Of a stretch of 46,425 nt of DNA, positions 26,126 to 45,553 are shown piece after piece. A program made the position numbers and the translations under genes. This stretch comes from Anaerolineaceae bacterium. GTDB lineage: Bacteria > Chloroflexota > Anaerolineae > Anaerolineales > Anaerolineaceae. Numbering within the stretch: position 1 is the first letter of the stretch; the number at the start of each line of letters is the position of its first letter. The stretch is from positions 1-46,425 of the forward strand of contig PWSY01000096.1 of assembly GCA_003563055.1 (NCBI GenBank). The letters are read 5' to 3'. The notes under the pieces were generated by a model. It was not told where the DNA came from. It saw only the letters and a program-made list of their open reading frames with translations, and made no database searches.

Positions 26126-27814
26126 TTAGCCATCAGGCATCAAATCCGTTCGTACCCAAAAAAGGATCTCTGTATTCCTGGTGGGAACTTCTCTCGTTAT
26201 CAACCAGTTGAGGTATTGGAAAGAACGCATCTCTTCCCATTGGGCCCGTTTAGACCAAACCAATTTTTGTCCCCGATAGCTGTTGGCAATCTCAGGAAGT
26301 TCCTGGACATTGGTGATTAACATACCTGGCTGGGTTTGAGGCGCAAGATATGGCACAAAGTGAACGGGGTCATAATCACGCAAGACCCATTGCATGCCGG
26401 GTGTGTCCAGATCAGAGACAGCAATCTCAATGGGGTTGACCCGTTTTGAATTTCTTGTAAGCACCCTGTCTATCGAGAGCAACAACCACTCAGGTGACAG
26501 ATTAGCCTCCTCTGGATACCATAAAGTATAGGAGATTTTGTGACTTAACCCGGTTGAATTGATGCTTATCGCGAACAGGCTGGCAGAAAAGACTAGGATA
26601 AATCCTATCAGGAAGCCAGCCCGGGCAACATTTCCAGACCAACCATAACTAATCAAAAGGAAAATGGCCACCAATAATACGACGCCCCCAGCCAGTGCAA
26701 TCAGGTAATTTATTTGCTGGGTCTGACTCAGGCCCGGCCGTACGAAAGACCGTGACGTAAGGGACATAAACGCTGACACCACAATCACCAGCACGGTTGT
26801 CAATATCAGCACAAACCTGCCGTTATCTGGCACTTGCCAGGTAAAACAAACCACCCGTGCAGACAAAATCCAAACAGGCAATGTCACCCAAACAAGATCA
26901 GCAGGTGTGCCGCCCGGGTAAAGTAAAACAAAGATCAGCCCAAAAACCCACCAAACAAATAAAAACATGTCAAGCTTATCTTTCATTAATATCCCCCTAA
27001 GCCCACCCCAAATAGCCAGGAGAATGGCTACAAATGTGTAAGCGGTCAGGATGAGTGGTAGCAGTAAATTCGTTGGTGGATAAGGTAAGGCAAATCCCCG
27101 GATAAAAGTTACCAAACCCGAAAAAATACCGCTGAGCCCAAACGGCGCCAGGTAAAAACCAGTCCCGACAACAAGTAATGCAACCGCAAAAGAGACCGCC
27201 ATAGGCAATAAAAAGCCATTGATTTCTGTCATTTTAGAAATGAGTAAAGCGTCAGATGCTTTAAATAACCACTCTGAGATTAAGAAACTGATTCCGATAA
27301 TTAAGCAGCCAACCCAAAAACTGGGGCCGCCCATTAAACCCAATGCCAGAGCAGCACCGGTTAGAATCGGTTTTTTCTTCATCCAGAACCCTACAGCAAG
27401 CAGGAGACAAACCAGCGCAATGATGGGTGAACCAATAATCCGTGATAACCCCACCATTTCAGGAGAGATGGCCAAGACTAAAGCCGATACTATTGCTGGC
27501 CACTGCCCAACCCGATCTCTAAATAAATAAGGCACAAAAACAATCAGCGAGCCGATAATACTCGGCCAGAAACGAGCCCAAAAATTGCTGGCATTGAAAA
27601 TAAAAAACGTCAAACCAGTCAAACCAACGTAAGTCATATTGGGCCCAAACAGGACAACAGCCCCCCGGTCAACAGCCAGGGCTTGCAAAGCCGTCACTGC
27701 CTCCCTATCGGTCAATGGTACCGCCCCCAGACGGATAAGCCTCATAGTTATTGCAACGGTAAAAGCAACGCACAGGAGCAGCAAATGCAAATCAGGTTTC
27801 TTGACATTCTTCAT
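26126..27814 (-). CDS. Polytopic GT-C-like membrane protein
   Basis: 562 residues with about 12 hydrophobic segments. The N-terminal luminal/extracellular loop after the first helix (IRLGAVPLTDREAVTALQ, about 28-45) has the D..E arrangement found in GT-C glycosyltransferases of the PMT/ArnT group, and the overall helix pattern fits. It resembles the uncharacterised chloroflexal/archaeal membrane families annotated around TIGR03663 (Agl23-like), but I cannot confirm the family. The C-terminal 100 residues form a soluble segment that may be extracellular. If it is a GT-C enzyme it would move a sugar from a polyprenyl phosphate donor to an acceptor outside the membrane. The weaker D..E loop leaves room for a non-catalytic role. 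Confidence 0.6.
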   Translation of the reverse strand: MKNVKKPDLHLLLLCVAFTVAITMRLIRLGAVPLTDREAVTALQALAVDRGAVVLFGPNMTYVGLTGLTFFIFNASNFWARFWPSIIGSLIVFVPYLFRDRVGQWPAIVSALVLAISPEMVGLSRIIGSPIIALVCLLLAVGFWMKKKPILTGAALALGLMGGPSFWVGCLIIGISFLISEWLFKASDALLISKMTEINGFLLPMAVSFAVALLVVGTGFYLAPFGLSGIFSGLVTFIRGFALPYPPTNLLLPLILTAYTFVAILLAIWGGLRGILMKDKLDMFLFVWWVFGLIFVLLYPGGTPADLVWVTLPVWILSARVVCFTWQVPDNGRFVLILTTVLVIVVSAFMSLTSRSFVRPGLSQTQQINYLIALAGGVVLLVAIFLLISYGWSGNVARAGFLIGFILVFSASLFAISINSTGLSHKISYTLWYPEEANLSPEWLLLSIDRVLTRNSKRVNPIEIAVSDLDTPGMQWVLRDYDPVHFVPYLAPQTQPGMLITNVQELPEIANSYRGQKLVWSKRAQWEEMRSFQYLNWLITREVPTRNTEILFWVRTDLMPDG

Positions 27815-28238: not shown

Positions 28239-31200
28239 TTAGTCTAAAACCTGATAGATAATGGTGCTATGATAGCGATAAACCTCTTCCCACAGCTGAC
28301 TTTCATAATCGTGAAACTTATCAAGCCCAGGGCCGGGATAATAGAAGCGTTCCAATTGACCAAACACAATATAGGCCACATCATAGCGAGTGATAAAATC
28401 ACTCACATAATCAATATCTTCTGTTGTGTAAAATTCATTGACAGCATCAACCCGTTCCTGGACAACATTCCGTTGGAGGACAGCGCGCTGTTGTCGCTGG
28501 TGCCAATTCCAACCCACCACACCGGGTAAACCAGTGTATATCGTAAAACGATTACCCCATCGATACTCATTGGCCTGTCCTTCCAGGATAACCGGAGACC
28601 CTTCAATGTTTTCTTGCATCCATCGAATGGCATGGTAATCCTCTTCCAATTGCATTTCCTCACCCTGGTCACGATAGACGGCATGTGTCATATACGCCAT
28701 ACCATCCAGGCTTCGAGGTGCTTCAGGCGCAATCCTATCGCGTATTTTATCCGCAGTGCCTGTCACAGTGAACAGCGCCGCTGAAACAACCAGGATAAAT
28801 AACGCAAATTGCCAAAATACTGCCAGCTTGTTTCGCCAATATCGAAGAGACTTAATGACCCATGCCAGGCAAAGACCACTGACCAGTGCAAACATGATCC
28901 ATGCTTGTAAATAGAACTTGAATACTGAGTTCATCCGGCCAATATCACCGGGCAGAAAGAACAATTCGACAGCTAAGGTCACCGTGAGCGCAGTGCCCAT
29001 CAGGAACAATAGGAAACGATATCCATTGGACATGCCTGGTCGAAACATCAATGCCACAATCCATAACCCCAAGGGTAGCACGACCAATGCAACAACCACA
29101 CCCATCAACAGACAAATAACCAGCAAAATAAAGAAAATTAACAGGACAGAATAAATGACTGATCGATAAGGTTCTAGTTTTTTCAAAGCAGACTGGGGTG
29201 TGGTCTTCATCCAATAATAGGTTTCCCAACACAACCAGCTGAAAATGATAAATAGGAACAAACCCCAATGGGTAAAATATGAGTTCAATGGGGTCCGATC
29301 ACCCTGCCAAATATCAACTTGAGCGTATGCCTGCCCAAACCAATAGGTAAATGGATGGTAAAAAAGTCTTGCTAATAAGGCCAGAGTTATTGATGCCAGG
29401 GATGCTATACCAATTTTCTCCAACAATACACCCCACCGTCCCTTGATATTTAGCCTGGGACTATAGTGTCTTACAATGCTGTAGAAAAGTGCAATCATAC
29501 CCAACACAAGGTAAGTGTAAAAGTCCCAGGTGTTGGTCGGTAACAAGGCACCAATAACAATCGCTCCAAGAGTATAGCTGATTGCCCCACTCAATAATTT
29601 GTTTTTACCATCTTTTTCACCCCAGCGCCCTTTGTTTAACACAACGGAAAGACTCCAACTGATCCCAAATACGGTAATTGGGAAAGCAATCAGATGAGCA
29701 TGCAAATCGGCATACAGAAAGGTGAAATATGGGAATTCGGTGATGGGCTCACCGGGGATGACCCTGCTCGGCACCCAATACCAGTCTCCTGGATAAAAGG
29801 GCATCGGTGCCCCTTGAATAAACTGCCCCAATCCTTGCAGCGTCCAGCTAATTTGTTGACCCAAAGAGGCTTCGTCAATTGAAGCACCGGCTGCTGCCAA
29901 ACGCTGAAATCCAGTTGTGATCAGTCGGATCGTACCAAGGTTGCCAACCACGACCATACCAATCGCCGTCGTAAGACCCACCCAAAAGGCTGTGCCCAGT
30001 ATCTTTTTGGTCTTCTCTTCGCCTATTTTTAAAGCAATTGTGCGTGGTATGCCTTTGTACAAATTCCAACCCACCGAAAAAGCACCCAGTGACAAAAGGC
30101 TGTACCACATCGGTAAAACAAGGTTATAGGCGATCGCCGGCACAATACCTAAAAGCTTGATCGGCATCCCCACAATCACAAAACCATAATAATAATAATT
30201 GATAAAACCGTTCGAAAACCAGGGATCGTAAGGTGGGAAGCTGGTGCTCTTGATAACAGCATTCAGGTAAGAAAAATCCATCGGTTTTTCACCGCCCTTA
30301 AATGGATGCCACAAATCCGGGTTTCCCAGTCGTACCAACAGGAATAGGCCAAAGGCAATTATGGCTAATACTTCAATCATTAAAAAATAACGCCAGTTGT
30401 CTTTCAGTTCTTGCCAGAGCCGTTTTCGCTGCAAAAGGATTAAACTAACTGCAATGAGGGTGATCCCAATTAACACCACTAAAATACTGGTTTTGGTAAC
30501 TGCTACGCCAAGAGAACCGGGAATCCAGACGAAAAAGGCTAATAAAAGCAATCCAGCTAGTTTCGACAAAGGATATCCCCGGTCATTGAGGCCAGGCAGG
30601 GCCAAGCGCACCAGTGGATAAGATATGACACCCAACAAGCTGACAAAAAGATAGAAAGCAACTATTGCCAATGGTTCAGATCTGTTAAGGAGGCTATGGG
30701 TGTTAAATAATTCTGACCAGGTGCCGCCCAAACGCTGCCCTTCCAATCGATCCGGGGGCAAAATCAGGTTGTGCCTTGGTTCAAGGACCTGCTCAGCAAC
30801 AGTCCCCCGATAGGATGCTGCTTCAGCAGGTGTGAAATAGACAACTTTACTGAGATCAACCGAACGCAAGATATGGCGCACTTCAATCGGGTCGTAAGCT
30901 TCTGTTTTTTGGAAAATCAGTACTTTTGGGTGATCATAAACAGTGAAGGCTTCTTCTGCAAATTGAGTATTAAATTCAATTGGCCCCAGGTTTGGATTGG
31001 AATGGGAAATGGCAACCAACTCAAAACCAAGCGTACCATCAAACATGCCTGGCTCTGCCACACTATAACACCAGATAATTGTTTCATCGGCTGGGCATCC
31101 CATCAGCTGACGATAATAATGTGTCGTCAGTGGATAACGTTCAGGCACGCGCGTCGTCGTACCCCATTGGCGATTTGAACTGATAAAAATATAATCCGCC

Positions 31201-33599
31201 AGGTCAAGGTTGGTCTCAAAACGATTAAGCTTGTTCTCATCATCCGGCCAATACATCTGGAAATTTAGGTCCCCCCTGTAAATGCCACCATCCTCACGAT
31301 AAGCGTTGTACCCATCCACCCTGTAGGGAACAACATCATCCCAACTGCTCTCATGCACAGGAGCTAAAGTATATAAAACGATCCGGGCACCAGCTGTACT
31401 GGTCGTGAGCGAAATATGAATTGTCTCTCCAGATTGAACCACTAATGGCTGTTCAAGGGAGAAAGTATAAGCATCACCCCGAATATCCGTGTCGGTTGTA
31501 AATTCGGAATATAGCGTATTGACCCTTATTTCTTGATCGGGTCCTTCTATAGTTAATGTCAGGGCCTTGGTCCCCTCTAGTCCAGAACGTTCAATAATGT
31601 AGGGAATATGGACCGCTCTGATTGTGCCGCCTTCAACCAACCGGGTCGTGTAAGAATATGGGGTTTCAGTGCTTATGCTCTGTTGGATTTGAGGTAAAGG
31701 GCTGTCGAGTTCCATACCTTCGTGAGTGAGCAAGTTTGCCACGGGAGAACCCCTCAAAAGAATGGAAGATCCGCCCTGTAAAAGTTCAAGCTGAAGGTAA
31801 TATAGTTCTCCTTTTTGGACTGCAACTGACCTGGTAAATTCAAAAGCAAAGGAATCGCCCCAACGATTGTTGTCCGGTGGCAGGAAGTCGCTCTCTATCA
31901 AAGTGCTTGCCAGCACTTTTTCCGCGCCATCAGCAGACACAACAGATAACATGATCTGCTTAATTGTCATCTTTTGAGTCTGATCCAGGATATGGGGAAA
32001 TGTAACCGATTGTAGTTTGCTATCTGCAATAGCAAGGAATGGCATCCTGAAGGGTTCTCCGGCAACCAAAGTGTCGCCTACCGGATAAGATAGGGGTTGT
32101 TGATAATTCCCATCAGCTGTTTCCAATTCTAAGGTTAAAGGCCCCGAGATATTTTGAAAGATCCAGCGGCTGGCTGCCACACGGGTGTGTGGACGGGTAT
32201 AAATTCGTGAAAACGCAAAGGCCCAGGCAGCTGTCAAAGTAACGACCAAAGCTGTCAAAACAATACCTGCAGTCCGAATGGCTTTTGGGGATATCTTCAC
32301 ACGCCCAATATTCACAGCTTTGCTTATTGACCAGAGTTCCACCAAACCCCATCCTGCAATCAATGCCAGGGCAGGGTAGATCAACATCTGGTAACGCATG
32401 GACCGTGTAAAAGCAAGTGCCTGCCAGACAAAATGAAGGCCTGTAAAAACCCATAAAGGAAAATTTCGCCGCAAGTCGTGTTTTCGCAAGATTAACCAGC
32501 CCATAGCGAAAAAAGCCGCCCATGCGAGCAAACCCAAGGGCCAACCGAACCCCCATACGACCATATTCTCCCAGGAGAAAGTGATCGGCCGCCTGGCCCA
32601 TTGTAATGCTGGTGGAAAGTCCACAGCGCCCGATGTCTGAGAACGCAGGCTCTGTAACCCCGACCACCAATTCTCATTGATGCGCATATTAAGGAATCCC
32701 GGCCCATCAAAGGCATAGGGTTGACCGATTCGAAATACCAGGAAGCTTAGAATTCCAGCTACCAATAGGTTTCGTAAAACACGGGGAAATGCCGCTTGCC
32801 TTTCGTCAGGTTCTATGTCCAGAATACGCATCCCCTCCACCAACGGTAAGACCATCGCTAACACAACCGCATTTATCTTCGAAGCCGTTGCTGCTCCCAG
32901 CGCAACCCCAAAAAGGATATAAGGCGCCAGTTCTCGTAATAATTGGCCGAGCTTAATCAGGTTAAAAGACGACTGGGATGGCTGATTTTCATCTACAGAG
33001 TCCTGATCAGCCGCAGGTTCTTCTGTATCATCCATTTTTTTAACAACCTTGCCATCTGGACGAGTTAATGCCCAAACAGCACCAAATACAGCCAGATAAG
33101 CAAAAGTGTTGGTGGGCACATCCACAGTCATATAATGGGACAGTTGAATGGGGAGAACAGCCAGCGCATAAAATACTGCCCCCAGCAAACCTGCCCAGCG
33201 GTTGTACAAACGTTTGCCAATGGCAAAAACCAACACTATGGTCAGCAGATCAAATAATGCGGATACTTGCCTTCCCAATATGGTGATCGAATCATAATCT
33301 GTTTGCCCCAACGCTTCGCCAAGATAACGGACGATGAAGATTGGTAGCGTGCCATAAACAAAGAAAGTATGACCTCGGTTAGCCGGGTTTAAGCTGGAAG
33401 TTGCTGTATCAAAATAATCAGATACGTTTTCAACCGGTGAGATCGATGCCTGCACCATACTGAGAAAACGTTCATCAGGGTGCATATGATGATTATCATC
33501 CCAGTTGACGCCGACCAGCCGTAAATAAGCACCAGCCAGCACAGTGATGATCAAAAAAATTATAAGAAGGGTCTTTTTATTACTTATTCCATTCAACAT
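28239..33599 (-). CDS. Giant membrane protein: GT39-like half fused to Chlor_Arch_YYY (DUF2298) half
   Basis: 1786 residues. Residues 1-480: about 10 membrane segments with a PMT/GT39-like extracellular motif MHPDERF (about 39-45) after helix 1. Residues about 485-965: a mostly hydrophilic beta-rich region holding two related-looking jelly-roll-type stretches, predicted outside. Residues about 970-1786: a second set of membrane helices containing the signature YYYYG (about 1135-1139) that defines the Chlor_Arch_YYY/DUF2298 family, plus FLYADLHAHLIAFP and a soluble C-terminal end. DUF2298 has unknown function; GT39 proteins use polyprenyl-phosphate sugars. I choose ATG 33599 (a frame from 33656 adds 19 residues with no good ribosome site). 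It is preceded by a mini-ORF (33593-33628). Confidence 0.82.
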   Translation of the reverse strand: MLNGISNKKTLLIIFLIITVLAGAYLRLVGVNWDDNHHMHPDERFLSMVQASISPVENVSDYFDTATSSLNPANRGHTFFVYGTLPIFIVRYLGEALGQTDYDSITILGRQVSALFDLLTIVLVFAIGKRLYNRWAGLLGAVFYALAVLPIQLSHYMTVDVPTNTFAYLAVFGAVWALTRPDGKVVKKMDDTEEPAADQDSVDENQPSQSSFNLIKLGQLLRELAPYILFGVALGAATASKINAVVLAMVLPLVEGMRILDIEPDERQAAFPRVLRNLLVAGILSFLVFRIGQPYAFDGPGFLNMRINENWWSGLQSLRSQTSGAVDFPPALQWARRPITFSWENMVVWGFGWPLGLLAWAAFFAMGWLILRKHDLRRNFPLWVFTGLHFVWQALAFTRSMRYQMLIYPALALIAGWGLVELWSISKAVNIGRVKISPKAIRTAGIVLTALVVTLTAAWAFAFSRIYTRPHTRVAASRWIFQNISGPLTLELETADGNYQQPLSYPVGDTLVAGEPFRMPFLAIADSKLQSVTFPHILDQTQKMTIKQIMLSVVSADGAEKVLASTLIESDFLPPDNNRWGDSFAFEFTRSVAVQKGELYYLQLELLQGGSSILLRGSPVANLLTHEGMELDSPLPQIQQSISTETPYSYTTRLVEGGTIRAVHIPYIIERSGLEGTKALTLTIEGPDQEIRVNTLYSEFTTDTDIRGDAYTFSLEQPLVVQSGETIHISLTTSTAGARIVLYTLAPVHESSWDDVVPYRVDGYNAYREDGGIYRGDLNFQMYWPDDENKLNRFETNLDLADYIFISSNRQWGTTTRVPERYPLTTHYYRQLMGCPADETIIWCYSVAEPGMFDGTLGFELVAISHSNPNLGPIEFNTQFAEEAFTVYDHPKVLIFQKTEAYDPIEVRHILRSVDLSKVVYFTPAEAASYRGTVAEQVLEPRHNLILPPDRLEGQRLGGTWSELFNTHSLLNRSEPLAIVAFYLFVSLLGVISYPLVRLALPGLNDRGYPLSKLAGLLLLAFFVWIPGSLGVAVTKTSILVVLIGITLIAVSLILLQRKRLWQELKDNWRYFLMIEVLAIIAFGLFLLVRLGNPDLWHPFKGGEKPMDFSYLNAVIKSTSFPPYDPWFSNGFINYYYYGFVIVGMPIKLLGIVPAIAYNLVLPMWYSLLSLGAFSVGWNLYKGIPRTIALKIGEEKTKKILGTAFWVGLTTAIGMVVVGNLGTIRLITTGFQRLAAAGASIDEASLGQQISWTLQGLGQFIQGAPMPFYPGDWYWVPSRVIPGEPITEFPYFTFLYADLHAHLIAFPITVFGISWSLSVVLNKGRWGEKDGKNKLLSGAISYTLGAIVIGALLPTNTWDFYTYLVLGMIALFYSIVRHYSPRLNIKGRWGVLLEKIGIASLASITLALLARLFYHPFTYWFGQAYAQVDIWQGDRTPLNSYFTHWGLFLFIIFSWLCWETYYWMKTTPQSALKKLEPYRSVIYSVLLIFFILLVICLLMGVVVALVVLPLGLWIVALMFRPGMSNGYRFLLFLMGTALTVTLAVELFFLPGDIGRMNSVFKFYLQAWIMFALVSGLCLAWVIKSLRYWRNKLAVFWQFALFILVVSAALFTVTGTADKIRDRIAPEAPRSLDGMAYMTHAVYRDQGEEMQLEEDYHAIRWMQENIEGSPVILEGQANEYRWGNRFTIYTGLPGVVGWNWHQRQQRAVLQRNVVQERVDAVNEFYTTEDIDYVSDFITRYDVAYIVFGQLERFYYPGPGLDKFHDYESQLWEEVYRYHSTIIYQVLD

Positions 33600-33628
33600 T
33601 TTATACCGCTTTTGTTTGCTGTCATCAT
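33593..33628 (-). CDS. Possible 11-codon coupling leader ORF
   Basis: ATG 33628 has GGAGG six bases upstream (33635-33639), overlaps the stop of the GT39-like gene as ATGA, encodes MMTANKSGIKC, and stops at 33593-33595, just past the ATG (33599) of the giant fusion, which has no ribosome site of its own. The arrangement suggests that ribosomes are passed from one gene to the other through this short ORF. The peptide itself may have no function. Confidence 0.4.
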   Translation of the reverse strand: MMTANKSGIKC

Positions 33629-35742
33629 TGAGCGCCTCCGGGCATTGGCGGCACAAAGAAAATCATGAAATCCCTGTTGGCTACGCTCGACTCATATTGC
33701 CAGAGCACACCTTCTGGAAAGAGATTATTTAATAAATTCATGTTCTCGCTGTCGTTGATATTTACAAAAAGCAATATTGGGCGTGGATCATCAAGGGTGT
33801 CCTCAAGTCTATCTCCTTGTATCTCAAAGTCCATACCCGGGTAACCTGCATTGAGTGCTACCAGGCGGGTATCAACCCAATGGGGGTAACTGACCACGTA
33901 GTTTGTTTCCGGGCTTCCCATGGTATCGATAAATAGTGCTGAAACACCTCCTAGTTCAGATGTGTTCCAGGTTGAATTTCGATACAGTTGATAATATTGA
34001 TTAAAGACAAGGTCATGATTATTAACCCCAGAGAAAATCAGCATCAATAAAAACACCAAACCAATAACCAATTTACCCAATTTCCCCGATACGCCATGAT
34101 AAATTGAGCGAACTGTGGCTTCAAATGAAAGACCTATCACCACAAAAACAGGGATAAATGCGCCTGCTGACCTGTTTAAGGATGGGTTCTCGCCCGGATA
34201 TGCCAATGATAAGATTGATGGCATCAAGAGCATTGGAATGGAGACCAACAAAAAAAGATCCATCCAATGTCGCTTGCGGATATAGCGAACCAATAACCCA
34301 ATAATGCCTAAAAAATAAAAAGAGCCGGAGATGAATTCTAAAGCTGGCCTGCCCGGAACAGAATGTACCCAGATAACCCCGTTATCCCAGAAGAACATAG
34401 TGCTTGCATCCCAAAAGTTTTTGAGAAAAATCAACACAGATGCCTTCTGAAATGGCACCTCCATCGCTGTCAATCGTGAAAAGGCGCGATAGGAAAATAA
34501 TTGAGGATTCGCCAACCAGTAACGAAGAAGGGGCAGGAAGACTATGGCTGAAACCAAAACAATCACAAACAGAACATAAACCACCTCTAACCGACGGCCT
34601 TTGGCTGATTTATGACAATAATAGATGAGAATGCCAATCACAACCAAAATAGGCACAATACGATAAGGCGTGTAACCATGCAAGCCTAAACCCAAAAATA
34701 ACCCTGCCAGGAGCACATCGGTGATTTTCTGACGCCGCAGACCGCGCACAAAAAAGTACATTAATGGTGCCACAAACAATGGGTAATAGGCGAAACGTAG
34801 TCCTATCCTGGTGATGACCAGGGGCCAATAAGCCATGCCAGCAAACAACGCTGAACTCAATCCTGTCCATTTGTTCCCAATCTCATTACCCAGCAGGTAA
34901 ATAAAAAAAAGTGTCAGCAAGTTAGCAAAAACAGAGACCACTTTTAAGCTCAAGAAGGACATGTCCTGGTTAAATACCTGCAAATACACGGATGTCATAT
35001 AGAATTGAAGCATCTCCCTGCCGGTATTACGCGGAAAAAAGACAGGCGTGGTGCCATCCAAGATAGTGCTGATGTCGATCACCTTCTCAGCATGGTCAGA
35101 TATCATTTCAGGGGGAACCGACTCTAACCGGTGAAAATTAAAAAACAGGATTATTGCTATGACGGCCAGCACAACAATCGTCCAATAGGTCACACGACAT
35201 GGCCAACCCTCTTGGGAAAATCTCTCCCAGATAGCTTTAGGGGATAAAGCGCTCAATTTATCATTGTCCAAAAAAGCCAGTAAAACAAATATGATGGATG
35301 CTAACCATAAAAGAGTATTGATAAAGCCAAACAGCCCCCGGCCAAACAGGACAAAGGCCAAAACTGCCAAGACGATACCAATGATCAAAAATTGTAAATT
35401 TATCAAATTGAGTAAACTTTGCCTGGCATCTGGCTTTAATCCCACAAGCTGCCACTCCTTTTTCAGAATTGCAAGCAACAGGCAGCCAAAAGCAATCGCG
35501 TAGAAAATTACCCCTAGCAAAGGAGTCCGGTTTGGAGAAGGTTCCAATGTGAGCTGGGCGACTAATCCAAATAATATTGCAACCAACGTAAACCATGGAA
35601 AATTAGGTTTACTGGTGAAGGTCTCTTTCGCTTGAGATTCTTTTTTGGGTGATGGAACTCTTGATGAAAACCTTAACTTAGAAATAAAATAATCCCAAAC
35701 GCTGGGCTCTAAGATGGGGTCTGGTTCTTGTTGGTTTGCCAT
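33625..35742 (-). CDS. GT39-type membrane glycosyltransferase
   Basis: 705 residues, at least 12 membrane helices, with a soluble cytosolic N-terminus of about 45 residues. The extracellular motif EMISDHAEKVID (about 212-223) after an early helix matches the acidic D..E site of GT-C enzymes of the PMT/GT39 group. WPLVITRIGLRFAYYPLFVAPLMYF (about 295-325, split) and the C-terminal soluble part of about 130 residues are also typical. It would transfer a sugar from a polyprenyl-phosphate donor outside the membrane, to a glycan or protein not identified. The stop overlaps the start of the mini-ORF that leads into the giant fusion, so expression of both is probably coupled. Confidence 0.78.
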   Translation of the reverse strand: MANQQEPDPILEPSVWDYFISKLRFSSRVPSPKKESQAKETFTSKPNFPWFTLVAILFGLVAQLTLEPSPNRTPLLGVIFYAIAFGCLLLAILKKEWQLVGLKPDARQSLLNLINLQFLIIGIVLAVLAFVLFGRGLFGFINTLLWLASIIFVLLAFLDNDKLSALSPKAIWERFSQEGWPCRVTYWTIVVLAVIAIILFFNFHRLESVPPEMISDHAEKVIDISTILDGTTPVFFPRNTGREMLQFYMTSVYLQVFNQDMSFLSLKVVSVFANLLTLFFIYLLGNEIGNKWTGLSSALFAGMAYWPLVITRIGLRFAYYPLFVAPLMYFFVRGLRRQKITDVLLAGLFLGLGLHGYTPYRIVPILVVIGILIYYCHKSAKGRRLEVVYVLFVIVLVSAIVFLPLLRYWLANPQLFSYRAFSRLTAMEVPFQKASVLIFLKNFWDASTMFFWDNGVIWVHSVPGRPALEFISGSFYFLGIIGLLVRYIRKRHWMDLFLLVSIPMLLMPSILSLAYPGENPSLNRSAGAFIPVFVVIGLSFEATVRSIYHGVSGKLGKLVIGLVFLLMLIFSGVNNHDLVFNQYYQLYRNSTWNTSELGGVSALFIDTMGSPETNYVVSYPHWVDTRLVALNAGYPGMDFEIQGDRLEDTLDDPRPILLFVNINDSENMNLLNNLFPEGVLWQYESSVANRDFMIFFVPPMPGGAQ

Positions 35743-35951: not shown

Positions 35952-36782
35952 TCACCCTTGGGCATTTTTCGGTTTGCGACGAGTGATATAGAAAGTGTAC
36001 ACCCCTTCCATGGAAGTTGGATTGTCCATAAACTTCCTGGTCAACTTCCAGGGAATGATAAGATTCCAGCGTTTAGGAACCAAAATCCATCTGCCGAACA
36101 ATTTCTTTGAAAGAAATGCCGGTAATCCTAAAGGATGACCCCACTCTAAAACATACAAAGCCTCGGGTGGGAAATAATCCCATGTTTTTACAAGCTCAAA
36201 ACCTGCCCGATCTAACCTGGCTTCCCATACATCAGGGGATTCTGTGTGCGCGTGTCGTGAGATCCGGTTAAAAAAACGACTGTAGGCTACACACAATTTA
36301 GACAAACCCAGGGCGCTTAATACTTTTCGACCCCAAAGGCTTTCAGGAAAACGGTGGTTAGGCACACAGAAAACAAACATCCCCCCCGGTTTGAGAATGC
36401 GGGCTACTTCTGCCAATACCGGTTCCACTTTTTCGATGTGTTCCAATACGGAAGTGCTGGTTACCGTGGCAAAAGACTGCTCACCAAAGGGAATATGAGC
36501 ACCCTCACCCAGCACCAAAAGGCGATATGCTTTTCGCCGTCGCGCTTCCATCGTGGGCTTGACCCATGGATCCATGCCAACATCAAGTTTTTTTTCGAAA
36601 GCAACCGATGCAAAATGCCCATCCCCCGAACCCAGGTCAAAGACAGGCTCTGGGAGTGGAATCTCTTCATAAAAGCTGTTTTCAACAGCCCGTAAGAATC
36701 CTCTGAAATAAGGCAGTTGCGATAGATGCTGCCATAATATTTGATCTAATTTTTCGCTTTTCACATGATTATTCGCACACAT
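35952..36782 (-). CDS. SAM-dependent class I methyltransferase
   Basis: About 276 residues. Motif I is VFDLGSGDGHF (about 47-57), followed by an acidic-residue turn (LDVGMDPW), the post-I segment VLGEGAHIPFGEQSFATVTSTSVLEHIE (split, about 92-119) and LKPGGMFVFCVPN (about 131-143), the order of the UbiE/Methyltransf_11 group. The C-terminal 110 residues are basic and aromatic and may bind a lipid-linked or membrane-associated substrate. Start: ATG 36782, or GTG one codon earlier; no strong ribosome site. It lies in the minus-strand glycan run, 72 bp after a GT4 gene, so a sugar or glycan-lipid substrate is the likeliest guess. The exact substrate is unknown. Confidence 0.82.
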   Translation of the reverse strand: MCANNHVKSEKLDQILWQHLSQLPYFRGFLRAVENSFYEEIPLPEPVFDLGSGDGHFASVAFEKKLDVGMDPWVKPTMEARRRKAYRLLVLGEGAHIPFGEQSFATVTSTSVLEHIEKVEPVLAEVARILKPGGMFVFCVPNHRFPESLWGRKVLSALGLSKLCVAYSRFFNRISRHAHTESPDVWEARLDRAGFELVKTWDYFPPEALYVLEWGHPLGLPAFLSKKLFGRWILVPKRWNLIIPWKLTRKFMDNPTSMEGVYTFYITRRKPKNAQG

Positions 36783-36857
36783 CACTGCTTTAACACAAAC
36801 CGTAAAGAACTCGGGTGGGGAATCACATACACCAATTTGGGGTATTTAGAAGGGTCA

Positions 36858-38027
36858 TTAACGCTTGTTCATCGATTCCAATAGCGTAACAAATAAATCT
36901 TCATATGCTGCTGCAGTCGCTCCAGGTGCATATTGAGCCATAATCGCTCTAGGGTTTGTGATATAGGCCTCCTTGTTCTTTGCAATTTCGATAATGGCTT
37001 GGGCTAAAGCACTAGAATCGCCAATGGGGATTACTTTGCCCATCCCATGCTGCAATACTGGCTGCCGAACGCCCGGTAGTTCAGAGGCTACACAGGGTGC
37101 CCCATTGATCATGGCCTCAATTTGTACCAACCCAAAGGATTCGGTTGAATTCAAACTGGGCACAACCAGGGTGTCCAAATTTGGATAAAATGCGGCCATT
37201 TCTTGGGGGTTTAAATTTCCCAGGAATTTCCATTGACCTTTAGCTTCATATGCTTGGATCATTGGGTACAGACGGTTAAAATAAGTTTCTTCACCCATAA
37301 CGTGCTGATATGTGCCAGCGTATAAAACCTTAGCCTCAGGAAAAGCCTGTAATACCTGGGGTAAAGCATTTAACAAAACTTCCACACCCTTTTCAGATGC
37401 AAAACGCGTCGCCATTCCAATGATGGGATAAAATCCGTGCACTTGATGCAGATCAGCAAAATCTTTTATTTCCGATTCAGTGGCCACGGGCAGTTCAACG
37501 GGTGGCGAGATAATCGAAATTTTATTATCATGAGCGCTTAAGTAAGGTGAATGCTCTGCAAAATCCCTGGTATAAGCCACAAAACGATTGGTAAAGATGG
37601 CGGCCAGGCGATTCATTACGTGAATAACCAAGTTTGCCATTCGGTTAAATAGCCCGGAGGGCAACTCCAAATCACAGTGATAGGTGATTACAACAGGTTT
37701 TCGCCATAAACGAGCCCGCAATGCAACACCGGCAGCATCAAATTGAGGTAGATGCAAGTGAACAACATCATGGTCTCGAACAAGCCGTGTCGCCATCAAA
37801 CCAAATTTTGGCATAATAACTCCCTTGCTTAGATGGGCCAACACCGGCACCCGGATTATCTGCACCCCATTGACAACTTCTTCCACGGGTGTGGCCGGAT
37901 CAAATTGAGAAGTCAATACAGTCACTGTATGCCCTCGGGATACCAATGCCTTGGACAAACGTTCGGCGTAAATAGTCAAACCGCTTGTGTGTGGACGATA
38001 ATACGTTAAAACAACAAGAATCTTCAT
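36858..38027 (-). CDS. GT4-family glycosyltransferase
   Basis: 389 residues with the two Rossmann domains of GT-B enzymes. The N-terminal acceptor domain begins MKILVVLTYYRPHTSGLTIYAERL. The donor domain has GMATRFASEKGVEVLL (about 198-213) and the nucleotide-sugar-contacting stretch STESFGLVQIEAM (about 300-312), the E-x7-E motif of retaining GT4 enzymes. It would transfer a sugar from a nucleotide sugar to a glycan precursor on the cytoplasmic face. It is 12 bp from the epimerase gene and the two are likely co-transcribed, so the epimerase product may be its donor; the sugar is not established. Confidence 0.9.
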   Translation of the reverse strand: MKILVVLTYYRPHTSGLTIYAERLSKALVSRGHTVTVLTSQFDPATPVEEVVNGVQIIRVPVLAHLSKGVIMPKFGLMATRLVRDHDVVHLHLPQFDAAGVALRARLWRKPVVITYHCDLELPSGLFNRMANLVIHVMNRLAAIFTNRFVAYTRDFAEHSPYLSAHDNKISIISPPVELPVATESEIKDFADLHQVHGFYPIIGMATRFASEKGVEVLLNALPQVLQAFPEAKVLYAGTYQHVMGEETYFNRLYPMIQAYEAKGQWKFLGNLNPQEMAAFYPNLDTLVVPSLNSTESFGLVQIEAMINGAPCVASELPGVRQPVLQHGMGKVIPIGDSSALAQAIIEIAKNKEAYITNPRAIMAQYAPGATAAAYEDLFVTLLESMNKR

Positions 38028-38039
38028 GCCAAAATTATC

Positions 38040-39065
38040 CTACTGAAATAGTTCCATGTTTTTATGGACCCAATCAAACAAACAACGCAATCCTCGACGC
38101 ACATCATAGGCCGGAGCCCATCCTAACGCTTGATGGGCTTTACGGATATCAGAAATATAAATTTTTTGATCACCAGGGCGCCAATCTTGATAATTGACCG
38201 GTAGCTCCTCACCCAATAATTGCCGCAGATGCCGACCAAATTCAACCCAAATTGACATCGTATTGGTTGGCCCACCCCCGATATTGTATACCTGTCCAGT
38301 TGCAATCTCTTGTTGATCAACGACTGCATCATAGGCGTTCAGTAAATCATCAATAAAGAGCACATCTCTGACTTGCTTGCCATCGCCGTAGATGGTTATC
38401 GGTTTACCTGTAAGTGCTGCAATCACAAACCAAGCCACCCAACCCTGATCTTCAATCCCAAATTGGCGCGGCCCGTAAATGCAGGACTGACGCATCACAA
38501 CGGTGGGCAAGTCATAAATGCGCGCATAATCTCGCACGTACTGATCTCCCGCACCCTTCGAACATCCATAGGGCGAATGAAAATCAAGCGGTTGTGTTTC
38601 CGGCACGCCCATTGGGATATCACGATAAGCATAGGCCGTTTCTCGTTCCTCAACCTTAATTTCCTCCATTTCACCATACACTTTATTGGTAGAAGCATAA
38701 ATGACAATTGGCCGTTCTCCCGTTTTTCTAGAAGCTTCAAGGACATTAAAAGTTCCCAGAGCATTGACTTCAAAATCCTGCCGGGGATCTGTGACAGAAC
38801 TTGTGACCGCAACCTGCCCAGCCAGGTGTACAATAACATCCTTCGCCCTGGCTTCTGTTTCAAGTCGTTCAGCATCCCTTACATCCGCCTGCACAAAATT
38901 GAACCCTTCCGGGCCAAAAGCATCTTGAAGCCACTTAAGGTTTCTTTTTGTGCCCTGTCGGGATAAATTATCATAAATAGTGACTTCCTCGCCCCGTTCC
39001 AACAATCGAGCCACATAATTACAACCAATAAAACCAGCACCACCTGTCACCAAATACCGTTTCAT
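38040..39065 (-). CDS. CDP-paratose/tyvelose-type sugar epimerase
   Basis: 341-residue extended SDR. TGGAGFIG (residues 7-14) binds NAD, the catalytic triad is represented by a Ser/Thr near STNKVYGE (about 125-132) and by Y...K in SPYGCSKG (about 168-175). The segments NKVYG, QPLDFHSPYGCSKGAGDQYV (split) and QSCIYGPRQFG...GWVAWF closely match the CDP-paratose 2-epimerase (RfbE/Tyv) subgroup, which converts CDP-paratose to CDP-tyvelose. No other CDP-3,6-dideoxysugar genes are in this window, so the true substrate may be a different nucleotide sugar. GGAGG precedes the ATG at a slightly long distance. It starts a tight pair with the GT4 gene. Confidence 0.85.
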   Translation of the reverse strand: MKRYLVTGGAGFIGCNYVARLLERGEEVTIYDNLSRQGTKRNLKWLQDAFGPEGFNFVQADVRDAERLETEARAKDVIVHLAGQVAVTSSVTDPRQDFEVNALGTFNVLEASRKTGERPIVIYASTNKVYGEMEEIKVEERETAYAYRDIPMGVPETQPLDFHSPYGCSKGAGDQYVRDYARIYDLPTVVMRQSCIYGPRQFGIEDQGWVAWFVIAALTGKPITIYGDGKQVRDVLFIDDLLNAYDAVVDQQEIATGQVYNIGGGPTNTMSIWVEFGRHLRQLLGEELPVNYQDWRPGDQKIYISDIRKAHQALGWAPAYDVRRGLRCLFDWVHKNMELFQ

Positions 39066-39246: not shown

Positions 39247-40272
39247 TTATTCATTTGATTTGACTTCTGAGGCATGATGGACAACGCGGTGGTAAAGTGC
39301 AATTACAGCCTCGCCTCGCAACCTTAAGCCAATTAAACCAATGATACTCGCATACACAAATGTCATCAGGTGCACCACAATGGCCAGTGTGAAAGCCAAT
39401 TCAGCTTCAACACCTAACAAGGCAAATGCAGCCACTTTCACACCCTCAAAGACCCCCCAACCGGCAGGGGCTGAAGGAAGCGCCGCGCCAAATGCGGCTG
39501 CACTAAGGACAAAAATCATCCACCAAAAAGGCGGTTGTGGAAATATACTGCGAAAGATGATGTAATTTTGTCCAAACGCCAGGAACCAGCTCACCACCAG
39601 GCTTCCTAATGCAAGCATAAAAGAAGCGGGGTTGTTCAGGATGGATAAACCATTTAGCAATTTTACAACCTTGGGTGCAACCCAATTCTTGATGAAATCA
39701 GACCTTTCGCCCCAACGAGCGATCCAGACATTAATCTTCCCCTGATACCGGGTGGCAAGAAAAAGAACTGCAAAACCCGTAATGGCAAGGATCAAAGCCA
39801 TCACGATCAATGATTGATCGTATGCTGCTCCCAATATTCTTGGCAGCATACTCAAAACAAACACAGCCGCCAGGAACACATCAAAAATCCGCTCGACCAG
39901 GACACTTGACAGCACCTCAAGACCAGATACACCCTGTGGATCGTCCAGTAAAACCGCCCGCCCAATTTCGCCCAATCGGAATGGAAAAATATTATTCAAC
40001 AAATAACCGGCACCCATGGTTAAAAAAGCATCTTTATAGCTTACTTTTCGCTGCATCAACAGGTACCAGCAGAACGCGCGAAATAAAAAACTGACCAGGT
40101 AGACCAAAGAGGCCAACAAAAAAGATCCCCAGCCAATTCTTGAAAGATGATGAAGAAATTGTGAAAAGTCAATATTGCGCAGCACCAGCCAAAGCGCGAT
40201 GCCGCTGATGGCCAGTGGGATCAGCCACCGCAATCCCTTTCCGAAAGCGTTTGTTGTCGTCCTGACTGTCAC
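39247..40272 (-). CDS. Flippase-like/UPF0104 membrane protein
   Basis: 341 residues, about 8 membrane helices, of the lysylphosphatidylglycerol synthase-TM/UPF0104 family, which includes archaeal AglD-like proteins and proteins thought to act on or near lipid-linked substrates. Marks: [41 protein letters not shown] (about 86-109, split) and the C-terminal [16 protein letters not shown] (about 268-283). The molecular function is unresolved. The GTG start overlaps the lepA stop as GTGA, so translation is coupled to lepA even though the functions differ. It is followed, after a 181-bp gap holding nothing recognisable, by the epimerase-GT4-methyltransferase run. Confidence 0.8.
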
Positions 40273-42130: not shown

Positions 42131-42546
42131 CGTTACTGATAAAATAAATGGCGGACGATGCAGCAGGATTGTTTATTAGCAGCCTCAGTCGAGTGATAGA
42201 CCTGATCCACTGTTCTGAGACTGACTAGATTATACCAGCACGGCTAAATATTATCCGACCACAAAGACTTCCAGCTAATGCATTTCTTCTCGATCGTCAT
42301 TAGGATTATTCCTGGTGTTAAAACAATGTCGCCCGTATTCATAATTCTGAACAGGCTACACCACTCTAACATGCAAGACTATTTCACTGGAATTAAAAAG
42401 AATAAGCTTAACTACTCAGTCAACCCTACTACTGAAGGTTGGAGCTCTATTATCCAACAAGTGTTAACAGCACCAGCTAAAATGTGTCAAAAGGGGTAAT
42501 ATTATTATTAACTTATGTCACCAACGCCCCAAAGGTTGCTCACTTT
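42131..42546. other. Gene-poor gap with repeat fragment C
   Basis: 416 bp between divergent lepA and the sulfotransferase. The 13-mer TAACTACTCAGTC at 42409-42421 is identical to part of repeat copy B, which suggests a relic of the same element. No promoter of good quality for the sulfotransferase, no RNA gene and no convincing ORF were found. Confidence 0.4.
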
Positions 42547-43704
42547 ATGCACCTCAATTTCAAACTCTTTTTAAAAACAATCTGGGTAAGTTTCTTTAAA
42601 TCTAATGGAACACCAGGGCGGATAACACCAAAACGTTTTCTCGTGCTGATGTTCATCTTCCTTATCTATCCCCTTTGGAATAACAGTATTCGTTTGGCTT
42701 ACGGACTTGATCAACTCTTCTATCCTGAACATAAAAAACAGGATATTGAGAAACCAATCTTTATAATCGGAAACTTTCGCTCTGGCACCACCTTATTGCA
42801 TCGACTGCTGGCCAAAGACCCCCGGTTCACCGGGATGAAAGCCTGGGAAATCTATGTCGCTCCTACCATCCTTCAACGCAAACTCATTCGTTGGCTGATG
42901 AAAATTAACTGGATGATTGGGAACCCGATTCAGAAAATCATCACAGCCTTTGAAAAAGCACTCAAAGAATATTCCTATATGCATAAAACGGGACTTAAGG
43001 AAATTGAAGAGGATGGACATGTCCTGTTACACATTTGGTCAACCTACAACCTGTTTGCCTTCTTCCCCTTCCCTGAATTGGTAAATAAGTACATTTATTA
43101 TGACGAAGAAGTGCCCCAAGAACAAAAAGATATGGAAATGGCCTATTACCAGGAAATCCTGAAACGTCATATCTACGCGAACAATGGAAAACAGTATATC
43201 TCAAAAAACCCCTCTTATTCACCAAAAGTTAAAACGCTTCACCAGAAATTCCCAGATGCAAAGTTCATCAACCTGGTTCGCTCCCCCTTACGCGTCATCC
43301 CATCATCGGTTAGCATGTTCTCCAACCACTGGAAAACTTATGGGGAGCCCGGTCAAGAATACCCGCAACCCGGGCCAGAAATTATGCAGGAACAGGCTAA
43401 ACACTGGTACCTCTACCCCCATCAATACTTAAAAAAATTACCACCCGACCAATACGTGATGGTGCGCTATCGAGACCTGGTCGCTGACCCACAAAAAACC
43501 GTCGAGAACATTTATCTACACTTCAACATGGATATGACCCCCGAATATCGTCAGATCCTGACCTTTGAATCAGAAAAAGCCAAGCAGTTCAAGAGCAATC
43601 ACACCTATTCCCTGGAAAAGATGGGGCTTAACCACGAAGATATACTAAATGATTTTGAGACAACCATTGAAGATTTTGACCTGGAAACAAGGAAAACCCC
43701 TTGA
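42547..43704 (+). CDS. Sulfotransferase-family protein
   Basis: About 385 residues from ATG 42547 (a GTG at 42484 would add 21). AAAGG precedes 42547 at a rather long 11 bases, so the start is uncertain. A membrane-like segment (about 25-45) comes first, then the 5'-phosphosulfate loop IIGNFRSGTTLLHRLLAKD (about 75-93) with the key R.GTT pattern, and the 3'-phosphate binding strand INLVRSPLRVIPSSV (about 240-254). The C-terminal VRYRDLVADPQKTVENIY is standard for the Sulfotransfer_3 family. It would move sulfate from PAPS to a sugar, lipid or other hydroxyl; the acceptor is unknown. It is monocistronic and plus-strand, unlike its neighbours. Confidence 0.84.
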   Translation: MHLNFKLFLKTIWVSFFKSNGTPGRITPKRFLVLMFIFLIYPLWNNSIRLAYGLDQLFYPEHKKQDIEKPIFIIGNFRSGTTLLHRLLAKDPRFTGMKAWEIYVAPTILQRKLIRWLMKINWMIGNPIQKIITAFEKALKEYSYMHKTGLKEIEEDGHVLLHIWSTYNLFAFFPFPELVNKYIYYDEEVPQEQKDMEMAYYQEILKRHIYANNGKQYISKNPSYSPKVKTLHQKFPDAKFINLVRSPLRVIPSSVSMFSNHWKTYGEPGQEYPQPGPEIMQEQAKHWYLYPHQYLKKLPPDQYVMVRYRDLVADPQKTVENIYLHFNMDMTPEYRQILTFESEKAKQFKSNHTYSLEKMGLNHEDILNDFETTIEDFDLETRKTP

Positions 43705-44674: not shown

Positions 44675-45553
44675 ATGTTCAAACAACTCCGTCATATACT
44701 GAATACCATGCGCCCCAAGCAGTGGACGAAGAATGTCTTCGTGTTTGCAGCGCTGGTCTTTGATCGACAGTTGATCGATCGCAACCCGTTTGTAATAACT
44801 CTTGTCGCTTTTGCATTGTTTTGCCTGGCCTCCAGCCTGGTCTACATTATTAATGACCTGGCAGATATTGACTCTGATCGCCAGCATCCACAAAAGCGAC
44901 ATCGACCCCTTGCTTCAGGAAAACTTTCGAAAAACCTGGCCATCCTTACAGCACTCATCATAGGTGCTGTGATCTTTCCCAGTACTTTTTTGCTCAACAC
45001 TGCCCTGGGCTTGACCATCAGTGCCTATTTCGTCATGATGCTGGCTTACTCATTATGGCTCAAACACATGCCCCTGATTGATGTGATCATTATCGCTGCC
45101 GGGTTTGTGCTGCGAGTGGCCGCAGGTGTGGTTATCATCGAAACAGAACGGTTTTCACCCTGGCTGTTCGTTGCCACCACCTTCCTGGCATTGTTTATCG
45201 GCCTGGGTAAACGTCGGGCAGAGATTGAGCTGCTGGCAACCGAGGCTGGCACACACCGGCGTGTCCTTGATGGGTATTCACTGGAACTGCTCGACCAACT
45301 TCTGACCATCGTCCTGAGCACCACCCTGATGACCTATTGCCTGTACACCTTCTCTGCCGTCATCACACCGGATAATCACAGCATGATGCTGACCATACCC
45401 TTCGTCATCTACGGCTTATTCCGGTACCTGTTCCTGATTCGCATCAAGCATATCGGCGGCGCGCCAGAGGAGATTGTACTGACAGACCGTCCCATGCAAG
45501 TGACCATTCTTCTGTGGGGTCTGACCGTTATCGCCATCCTTTATTTTCTCTAA
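44675..45553 (+). CDS. UbiA-type decaprenyl-phosphate phosphoribosyltransferase homologue
   Basis: 292 residues, about 9 membrane helices. The N-terminal RPKQWTKNVFVFAAL and the first acidic motif NDLADIDSDRQHPQKRHRPL (about 64-83) are typical of 5-phospho-alpha-ribose-1-diphosphate:decaprenyl-phosphate transferases (Rv3806c group) rather than of ubiquinone or heme enzymes; LGKRRAEIELL (about 176-186) supports this. It would load PRPP-derived phosphoribose onto a polyprenyl phosphate, the first step to polyprenyl-phospho-arabinose or -ribose. No DprE1/DprE2 are in this window. No ribosome site is seen before the ATG and a GATAAT box lies about 9 bases upstream, so the mRNA could be nearly leaderless. 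The mevalonate kinase starts 13 bp after it. Confidence 0.85.
   Translation: MFKQLRHILNTMRPKQWTKNVFVFAALVFDRQLIDRNPFVITLVAFALFCLASSLVYIINDLADIDSDRQHPQKRHRPLASGKLSKNLAILTALIIGAVIFPSTFLLNTALGLTISAYFVMMLAYSLWLKHMPLIDVIIIAAGFVLRVAAGVVIIETERFSPWLFVATTFLALFIGLGKRRAEIELLATEAGTHRRVLDGYSLELLDQLLTIVLSTTLMTYCLYTFSAVITPDNHSMMLTIPFVIYGLFRYLFLIRIKHIGGAPEEIVLTDRPMQVTILLWGLTVIAILYFL

Follow-up and report, generated by a model that had tools for sequence, protein, structure and literature searches.

Gene locus and architecture of the fusion protein

We have analysed a stretch of 46,425 nucleotides from an Anaerolineaceae bacterium (contig PWSY01000096.1; below, the window). Its minus strand carries the gene of a long membrane protein, P0001, whose structural model predicts a tandem of two glycosyl-transferring enzymes that share one fold. 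The frame was observed directly as one unbroken run of 1786 codons from the ATG at 33599 to the stop at 28239, and in this respect it agrees with the earlier note on this DNA, which had described a giant fusion here. The frame can be extended to a TTG at 33656 and would then overlap the upstream gene; the candidate starts span 33599-33656. In the same interval near the start of the fusion, a GGAGG stretch stands ahead of ATG codons in another frame, which are followed soon by a stop. The two motifs reported earlier were located precisely, with MHPDERF at residues 39-45 and NYYYYG at residues 1134-1139. The topology, catalysis, metal use, donor, order of action and acceptor of P0001, as described below, are what we infer. 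The features of the gene, all on the minus strand, are as follows.

28239..33599 (-): P0001 fusion protein, 1786 residues; PMT/STT3-like half of predicted GT-C fold, hydrophilic middle, YYY/DUF2298 half of predicted GT-C fold
32151..33599 (-): membrane part of the N half (residues 1-483), for which a GT-C fold is predicted
33468..33482 (-): residues 40-44, HPDER motif in the first external loop with D42/E43 as candidate catalytic acids; both acids kept in 71 of 71 rows (alignment A3)
31365..32138 (-): inserted beta-sandwich part of the middle, about residues 488-745 (from the model's secondary structure)
30810..31352 (-): outer domain (alpha/beta) belonging to the first half, about residues 750-930 (model and conservation)
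28740..30677 (-): membrane part of the YYY half (residues 975-1620), in which three extra helices precede the GT-C core (predicted model)
30288..30290 (-): E1104 (GGEKPM) in the YYY core's first external loop, an acid that may serve in catalysis or bind the metal; 126 of 126
30183..30200 (-): NYYYYG signature, residues 1134-1139 (sequence and alignments)
29694..29708 (-): D1298-L-H1300-A-H1302, candidate metal site; 126 of 126
28242..28736 (-): residues 1622-1786, outer domain (alpha/beta) of the YYY half, resembling the C-terminal core of AglB

The YYY half

The TIGR03662 model (Chlor_Arch_YYY) matched residues 977-1784 over model positions 3-726 of 727 with 489.1 bits (cut-off 300.25), and PF10060 (DUF2298) matched over its full 488 positions (1-488) with 359.5 bits (cut-off 27.8). 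Conservation was read from three alignments, which contained 18 fusions (A1), the YYY domains of the window together with 72 fused and 53 stand-alone proteins (A2), and the N half plus middle (N+M) of the window together with 70 such parts (A3); partial, X-holding or short frames were dropped from A2 and A3. As is directly visible in A2, the residues E1076, E1104, R1279, E1288, D1298, H1300, H1302, R1555, N1557, E1673 and Y1679 are invariant in all 126 YYY domains, fused and stand-alone.

The model of the YYY half shows a predicted GT-C fold with a first external loop and an outer C-terminal domain, and its nearest fold in structural comparison was STT3. Emb, AftA, AftB and ArnT were also among the structural matches of the predicted halves. 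Both GT-C folds are predicted with confidence, so that the search for two such folds in a predicted structure, which the earlier note had proposed, gave a positive answer for the N half and the YYY half alike. In our reading of the model, the invariant residues of the YYY half would lie on the outer face, with the exception of E1076, which is within a helix. The YYY half looks like a distant structural relative of the archaeal and eukaryotic protein-glycosylating enzyme. At the level of sequence, the window protein gave no PF02516 hit up to E 0.1, and a search of solved structures with the whole protein and both profiles returned chance-level matches only.

The metal ligands of AglB are Asp47 of a first motif and Asp161 and His163 of a second motif, Asp-His-His (PMC8342417). 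Likewise, the YYY half has an acid in the same loop and a D-x-H that starts a later outer helix. In a comparison of motifs made on sequence, E1104 and D1298-x-H1300 were invariant in YYY, and we propose that these residues match those of AglB. A divalent metal may accordingly be expected in the YYY half by analogy. DPY19 is metal-independent (PMC10154233); because of the D-x-H-x-H set of YYY, we prefer a metal site to such independence. The spacing pattern of the first loop, chosen after both families had been seen, occurs in 12 of 16 STT3 proteins and 87 of 126 YYY domains; it is absent from all 71 N halves, and shuffled sequences have it in 3-6% of cases.

The N half and the middle

In GT-C enzymes, the first external loop holds the catalytic acid. 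D42 and E43, which the model of the N half places in this loop, and R402 are invariant in 71 of 71 N+M rows, and the position of D160 holds Asp in 69 and Glu in 2 of them. The N half of the window protein had no Pfam match at E up to 0.1; it matched TIGR04154 (archaeo_STT3) weakly, with an E of 1.6e-5 and far under the cut-off of that model. On the other side, PMT or PMT_2 was over its cut-off in 10 of 10 hand-picked relatives, two of which are stand-alone N+M proteins. When the profile of the 71 N+M parts was compared with a profile of 16 Chloroflexota STT3 proteins, the probability was 96.4% and the E-value 1.4e-9 in this single comparison. The predicted fold lies equally near to STT3/AglB and to the pair PMT and ArnT. 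Therefore, of the "GT39-like" assignment proposed earlier, the GT-C fold stands and the GT39 label is too narrow; the chance that this half might not be GT-C-like at all did not come true.

The middle had been described as one large, mostly hydrophilic region. It is hydrophilic, but it is predicted as an outer alpha/beta domain with beta-sandwich inserts rather than one separate large domain. In the outer domain D754 is invariant in 71 of 71 rows and W753 is kept in 66. The beta-sandwich insert is absent from 3 of 18 aligned fusions (L087, L089, L100) and gave weak structural matches to unrelated beta proteins. Two stand-alone N+M proteins of 783 and 797 residues (L081:8477-10825 and L082:7825-10215) lie away from the main block and are paralogues of the first half.

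Distribution and history of the fusion

The samples were the best 80 of 576 confirmed related loci and 40 regions picked by hand, most of them for holding the gene, of which 35 hold the fusion. Both halves lie in one frame at 76 of the 80 loci, with six of these frames cut at a contig end. Three of the remaining four loci lack the N half where the contig ends, and one (L148) had no fused frame in the scan. Six of the 80 loci share 61-65% identity; their titles name Anaerolineaceae in four cases, Chloroflexota in one and Brevefilum in one. Among the fused loci are those of Levilinea saccharolytica, Bellilinea caldifistulae and Anaerolinea thermolimosa, all of them isolates. Within the order, 59 of 61 genomes match P0001 (E 1e-10), and TIGR03662 matches occur in 192 of the 199 class genomes sampled (E 0.001) and, across the phylum, in 67 of 101 (E 1e-20). 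Many YYY open frames have about 800, 1400-1900 or 2400-2770 residues, as grouped by length and not each scanned for an N half. The fusion is thus the ordinary arrangement in the class, and this common architecture can in part be seen from public family models. The note to TIGR03662 presumably mentions two-copy proteins. One locus titled as a Borreliella garinii metagenome-assembled genome (L181) also carries the fusion at 33% identity, and its title is probably wrong.

The 40 picked regions and 25 of the 80 loci, together with the window, supplied a tree of 108 YYY domains (FastTree, midpoint root), in which some genomes appear twice (e.g. L073, L165). It separates 59 fused domains, four domains from two double proteins and one stand-alone domain (L080) from the other 44 stand-alone domains with support 1.0. 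This split suggests two ancient paralogous groups of YYY, one fused and the other stand-alone. Two scanned proteins of the longest kind have 2436 and 2409 residues (L083:4483-11790 and L084:4233-11459), with PMT_2 and two DUF2298 stretches each, and are predicted to hold three GT-C modules per chain. The stand-alone YYY of the window genome itself lies on another contig and is cut by the contig end.

Occurrence of STT3

STT3 was not found in the window genome and 12 further members of the genus, several of them incomplete, at E 0.001. At the same threshold, 6 of 21 relatives of the window genome gave matches, all weak (best 29.4 bits). The phylum counts of YYY and STT3 cover 101 genomes each, and the listed genomes coincide, with 21 rows listed for STT3. 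At E 1e-8 STT3 occurs in one of the 101 (G327), which is not among the 67 YYY-positive genomes; the class of this genome has STT3 in 9 of 100 genomes (E 1e-10). G327 encodes three STT3/AglB-like proteins (L183-L185) with DHH or DTH and with WADYG, WWDFG or WWDYG. We also considered YYY as a pure replacement of STT3 and found this unsupported: Haloferax and Methanosarcina have both DUF2298 and STT3, and one STT3-positive genome is too few to speak of exclusion.

Gene neighbourhood

The conserved neighbours of the fusion in the window, all on the minus strand, are the following.

26126..27814 (-): Agl23-like membrane protein; TIGR03663 48.4 bits, under the cut-off of 126.25
33625..35742 (-): PMT_2-type glycosyltransferase; PF13231 30.5 bits, cut-off 26.1
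35952..36785 (-): S-adenosylmethionine (SAM) methyltransferase
36858..38027 (-): GT4 glycosyltransferase
38040..39065 (-): nicotinamide adenine dinucleotide (NAD)-dependent sugar epimerase/dehydratase
39247..40272 (-): LPG_synthase_TM (flippase-like) membrane protein

The block was observed directly around the fusion in other genomes. Among 54 loci with at least 7 kb upstream, PMT_2 is kept in 47 and GT4 in 45; 42 loci have the methyltransferase, 40 the flippase-like gene and 29 the epimerase. The neighbours named in the earlier note are conserved company (29-47 of 54). Among 61 loci with at least 6 kb downstream, the Agl23-like gene is found in 56 and a stand-alone YYY in 47; the window block has every conserved neighbour but the stand-alone YYY. 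A sulfotransferase (42484-43704) and a UbiA prenyltransferase (44675-45553) lie near the block. Elsewhere in the window genome, a 1194-residue open frame (C67:11114-13195) passes the TIGR03663 cut-off by summed pieces, with the model having 435 positions.

Discussion

We consider that P0001 comprises two complete GT-C modules, with their active sites on the outer face of the membrane, which act on polyprenyl-linked donors to build or transfer a surface glycan, and we give this explanation a probability of about two in three. The invariant residues suggest catalysis. The first module would be PMT/STT3-like, with D42/E43 and D160 as its acids and R402 near the donor phosphate. In the second module, which is nearest to STT3/AglB in fold, E1104, D1298 and H1300 would form a likely divalent-metal site with H1302 nearby, and R1555/K1561 may be near the phosphate. 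Both active sites would face the outside. The donors would be sugars or glycans linked to polyprenyl phosphate or diphosphate, assembled on these carriers within the cell and then flipped across the membrane. The two modules could act consecutively, in a coupled manner or on one acceptor during assembly or transfer of the surface glycan. The earlier suggestion that YYY takes part in the same lipid-linked sugar chemistry as the first half thus gains support at the level of fold, with its function as such a transferase being probable rather than observed.

Several observations weigh against this explanation. The YYY profile reached 11% against the N-half profile and about 5% against the STT3 profile, neither of which is significant. 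Since the sequence profiles do not match, the matching of YYY residues rests on fold and topology, and a common ancestry of YYY and STT3 is unsupported by sequence. PIG-U of the glycosylphosphatidylinositol (GPI) transamidase, which is not known to be an enzyme by itself, is listed in both VIA tables. Agl23, in turn, is reported to flip lipid-linked glycans (PMC11182771). Because of PIG-U and Agl23, a GT-C fold alone does not prove transfer. WWDYG, a motif of the outer domain of oligosaccharyltransferase (OST) (PMC3703281), is absent by eye from the outer domain of YYY (residues 1622-1786), and the first-loop pattern occurs in just 22 of 53 stand-alone YYY. Finally, a member of the window's family (L080) has a lone YYY half with a PMT_2 gene before it and a stand-alone YYY after it, at the same position of the block. 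The N half was apparently lost later at this locus, because its YYY is of the fused type in the tree and stands at the same place. The unfused protein and its stand-alone neighbour lie side by side at L080:9362-14322.

The same locus is what an assembly artefact joining two genes could appeal to. Considering that 76 of the best 80 of 576 loci are fused, including the isolates Levilinea, Bellilinea and Anaerolinea, the artefact is refuted, and with it the sequencing error between two open reading frames that the earlier note had named as a refutation. The main rival is that only one half is catalytic and YYY recruits or flips the lipid-linked sugar for the N half, as reported of archaeal Agl23. 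Haloarcula Agl23 suppresses the deletion of rft1 in yeast, and in liposomes it moves M5GN2-PP-Dol (PMC11182771), and an Agl23-like gene follows the fusion in most loci (56/61). On the other hand, the acid, the DxHxH and the Arg/Asn set invariant in all YYY domains (126/126) are as expected of an enzyme, and a stand-alone YYY lies downstream in many of these loci (47/61). Accordingly, we judge flipping or recruitment by YYY to be improbable.

Two further proposals are narrower forms of the two-enzyme explanation, and their odds overlap with it. If the pair builds a lipid-anchored or secreted polysaccharide rather than a protein glycan, the block with its GT4, epimerase, methyltransferase and flippase-like genes fits equally, and Emb, AftA, AftB and ArnT appear among the structural matches. 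Against this, no polymerase or polymer-export family was found among 16 scanned window proteins, a search confined to the part of the window after its first 13.5 kb. We regard a polysaccharide product as quite possible, at somewhat less than even odds. Alternatively, the YYY half may be an OST-like or O-linked glycosyltransferase of surface proteins, as its nearest fold (STT3), the AglB-like motif and the lack of overlap between STT3 (1/101) and YYY (67/101) in the phylum would allow. In Litorilinea archaellin, densities at two Thr were read as likely O-glycans, with the enzyme not named in the accessible part of that paper (PMC12488501), which suggests that protein glycosylation occurs in Chloroflexota. 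However, YYY has no WWDYG and no known acceptor, Haloferax and Methanosarcina have both families, and a single STT3-positive genome says little; we regard protein transfer as an unlikely, if serious, option. A bolder form, in which YYY/DUF2298 is a separate metal-dependent AglB-like lineage that glycosylates Chloroflexota surface proteins, with two transfer steps per fused chain and three modules (about 2400 residues) in some relatives, is speculative and in our view distinctly doubtful.

A widespread family without a stated function gains a predicted fold, a candidate active site and a testable gene context. If the transfer activity is true, these proteins would be candidate enzymes for surface glycosylation in Chloroflexota. 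In the open-access literature we found no functional paper on DUF2298, Chlor_Arch_YYY, TIGR03662, TIGR03663 or PF10060; the search for DUF2298 returned a gene-neighbourhood table in PMC8756737.

In comparison with known systems, the PMT/ArnT/GT39 enzymes (PF02366, PF13231) are like the N half in fold, and all ten picked relatives pass a PMT or PMT_2 cut-off, whereas the window protein reaches no PMT cut-off and differs also by its YYY fusion and beta-sandwich insert. From STT3/AglB/PglB (PF02516), P0001 differs by three extra helices before the core and by two modules per chain. The Agl23 family (TIGR03663) exists in the same genomes, over its cut-off in 17 of 21 relatives, and a distant relative is the next gene; Agl23 is a reported flippase in archaea, while the window neighbour scores under the cut-off. 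DUF2298 may belong to the GT-C clan of Pfam, which could already imply the fold. The YYY half is a clear member of TIGR03662/PF10060, whose models state no function; unlike these models, we propose for it a GT-C fold together with candidate active-site residues. To place DUF2298 among the GT-C modules of STT3/AglB type, with a putative metal site, seems to be new.
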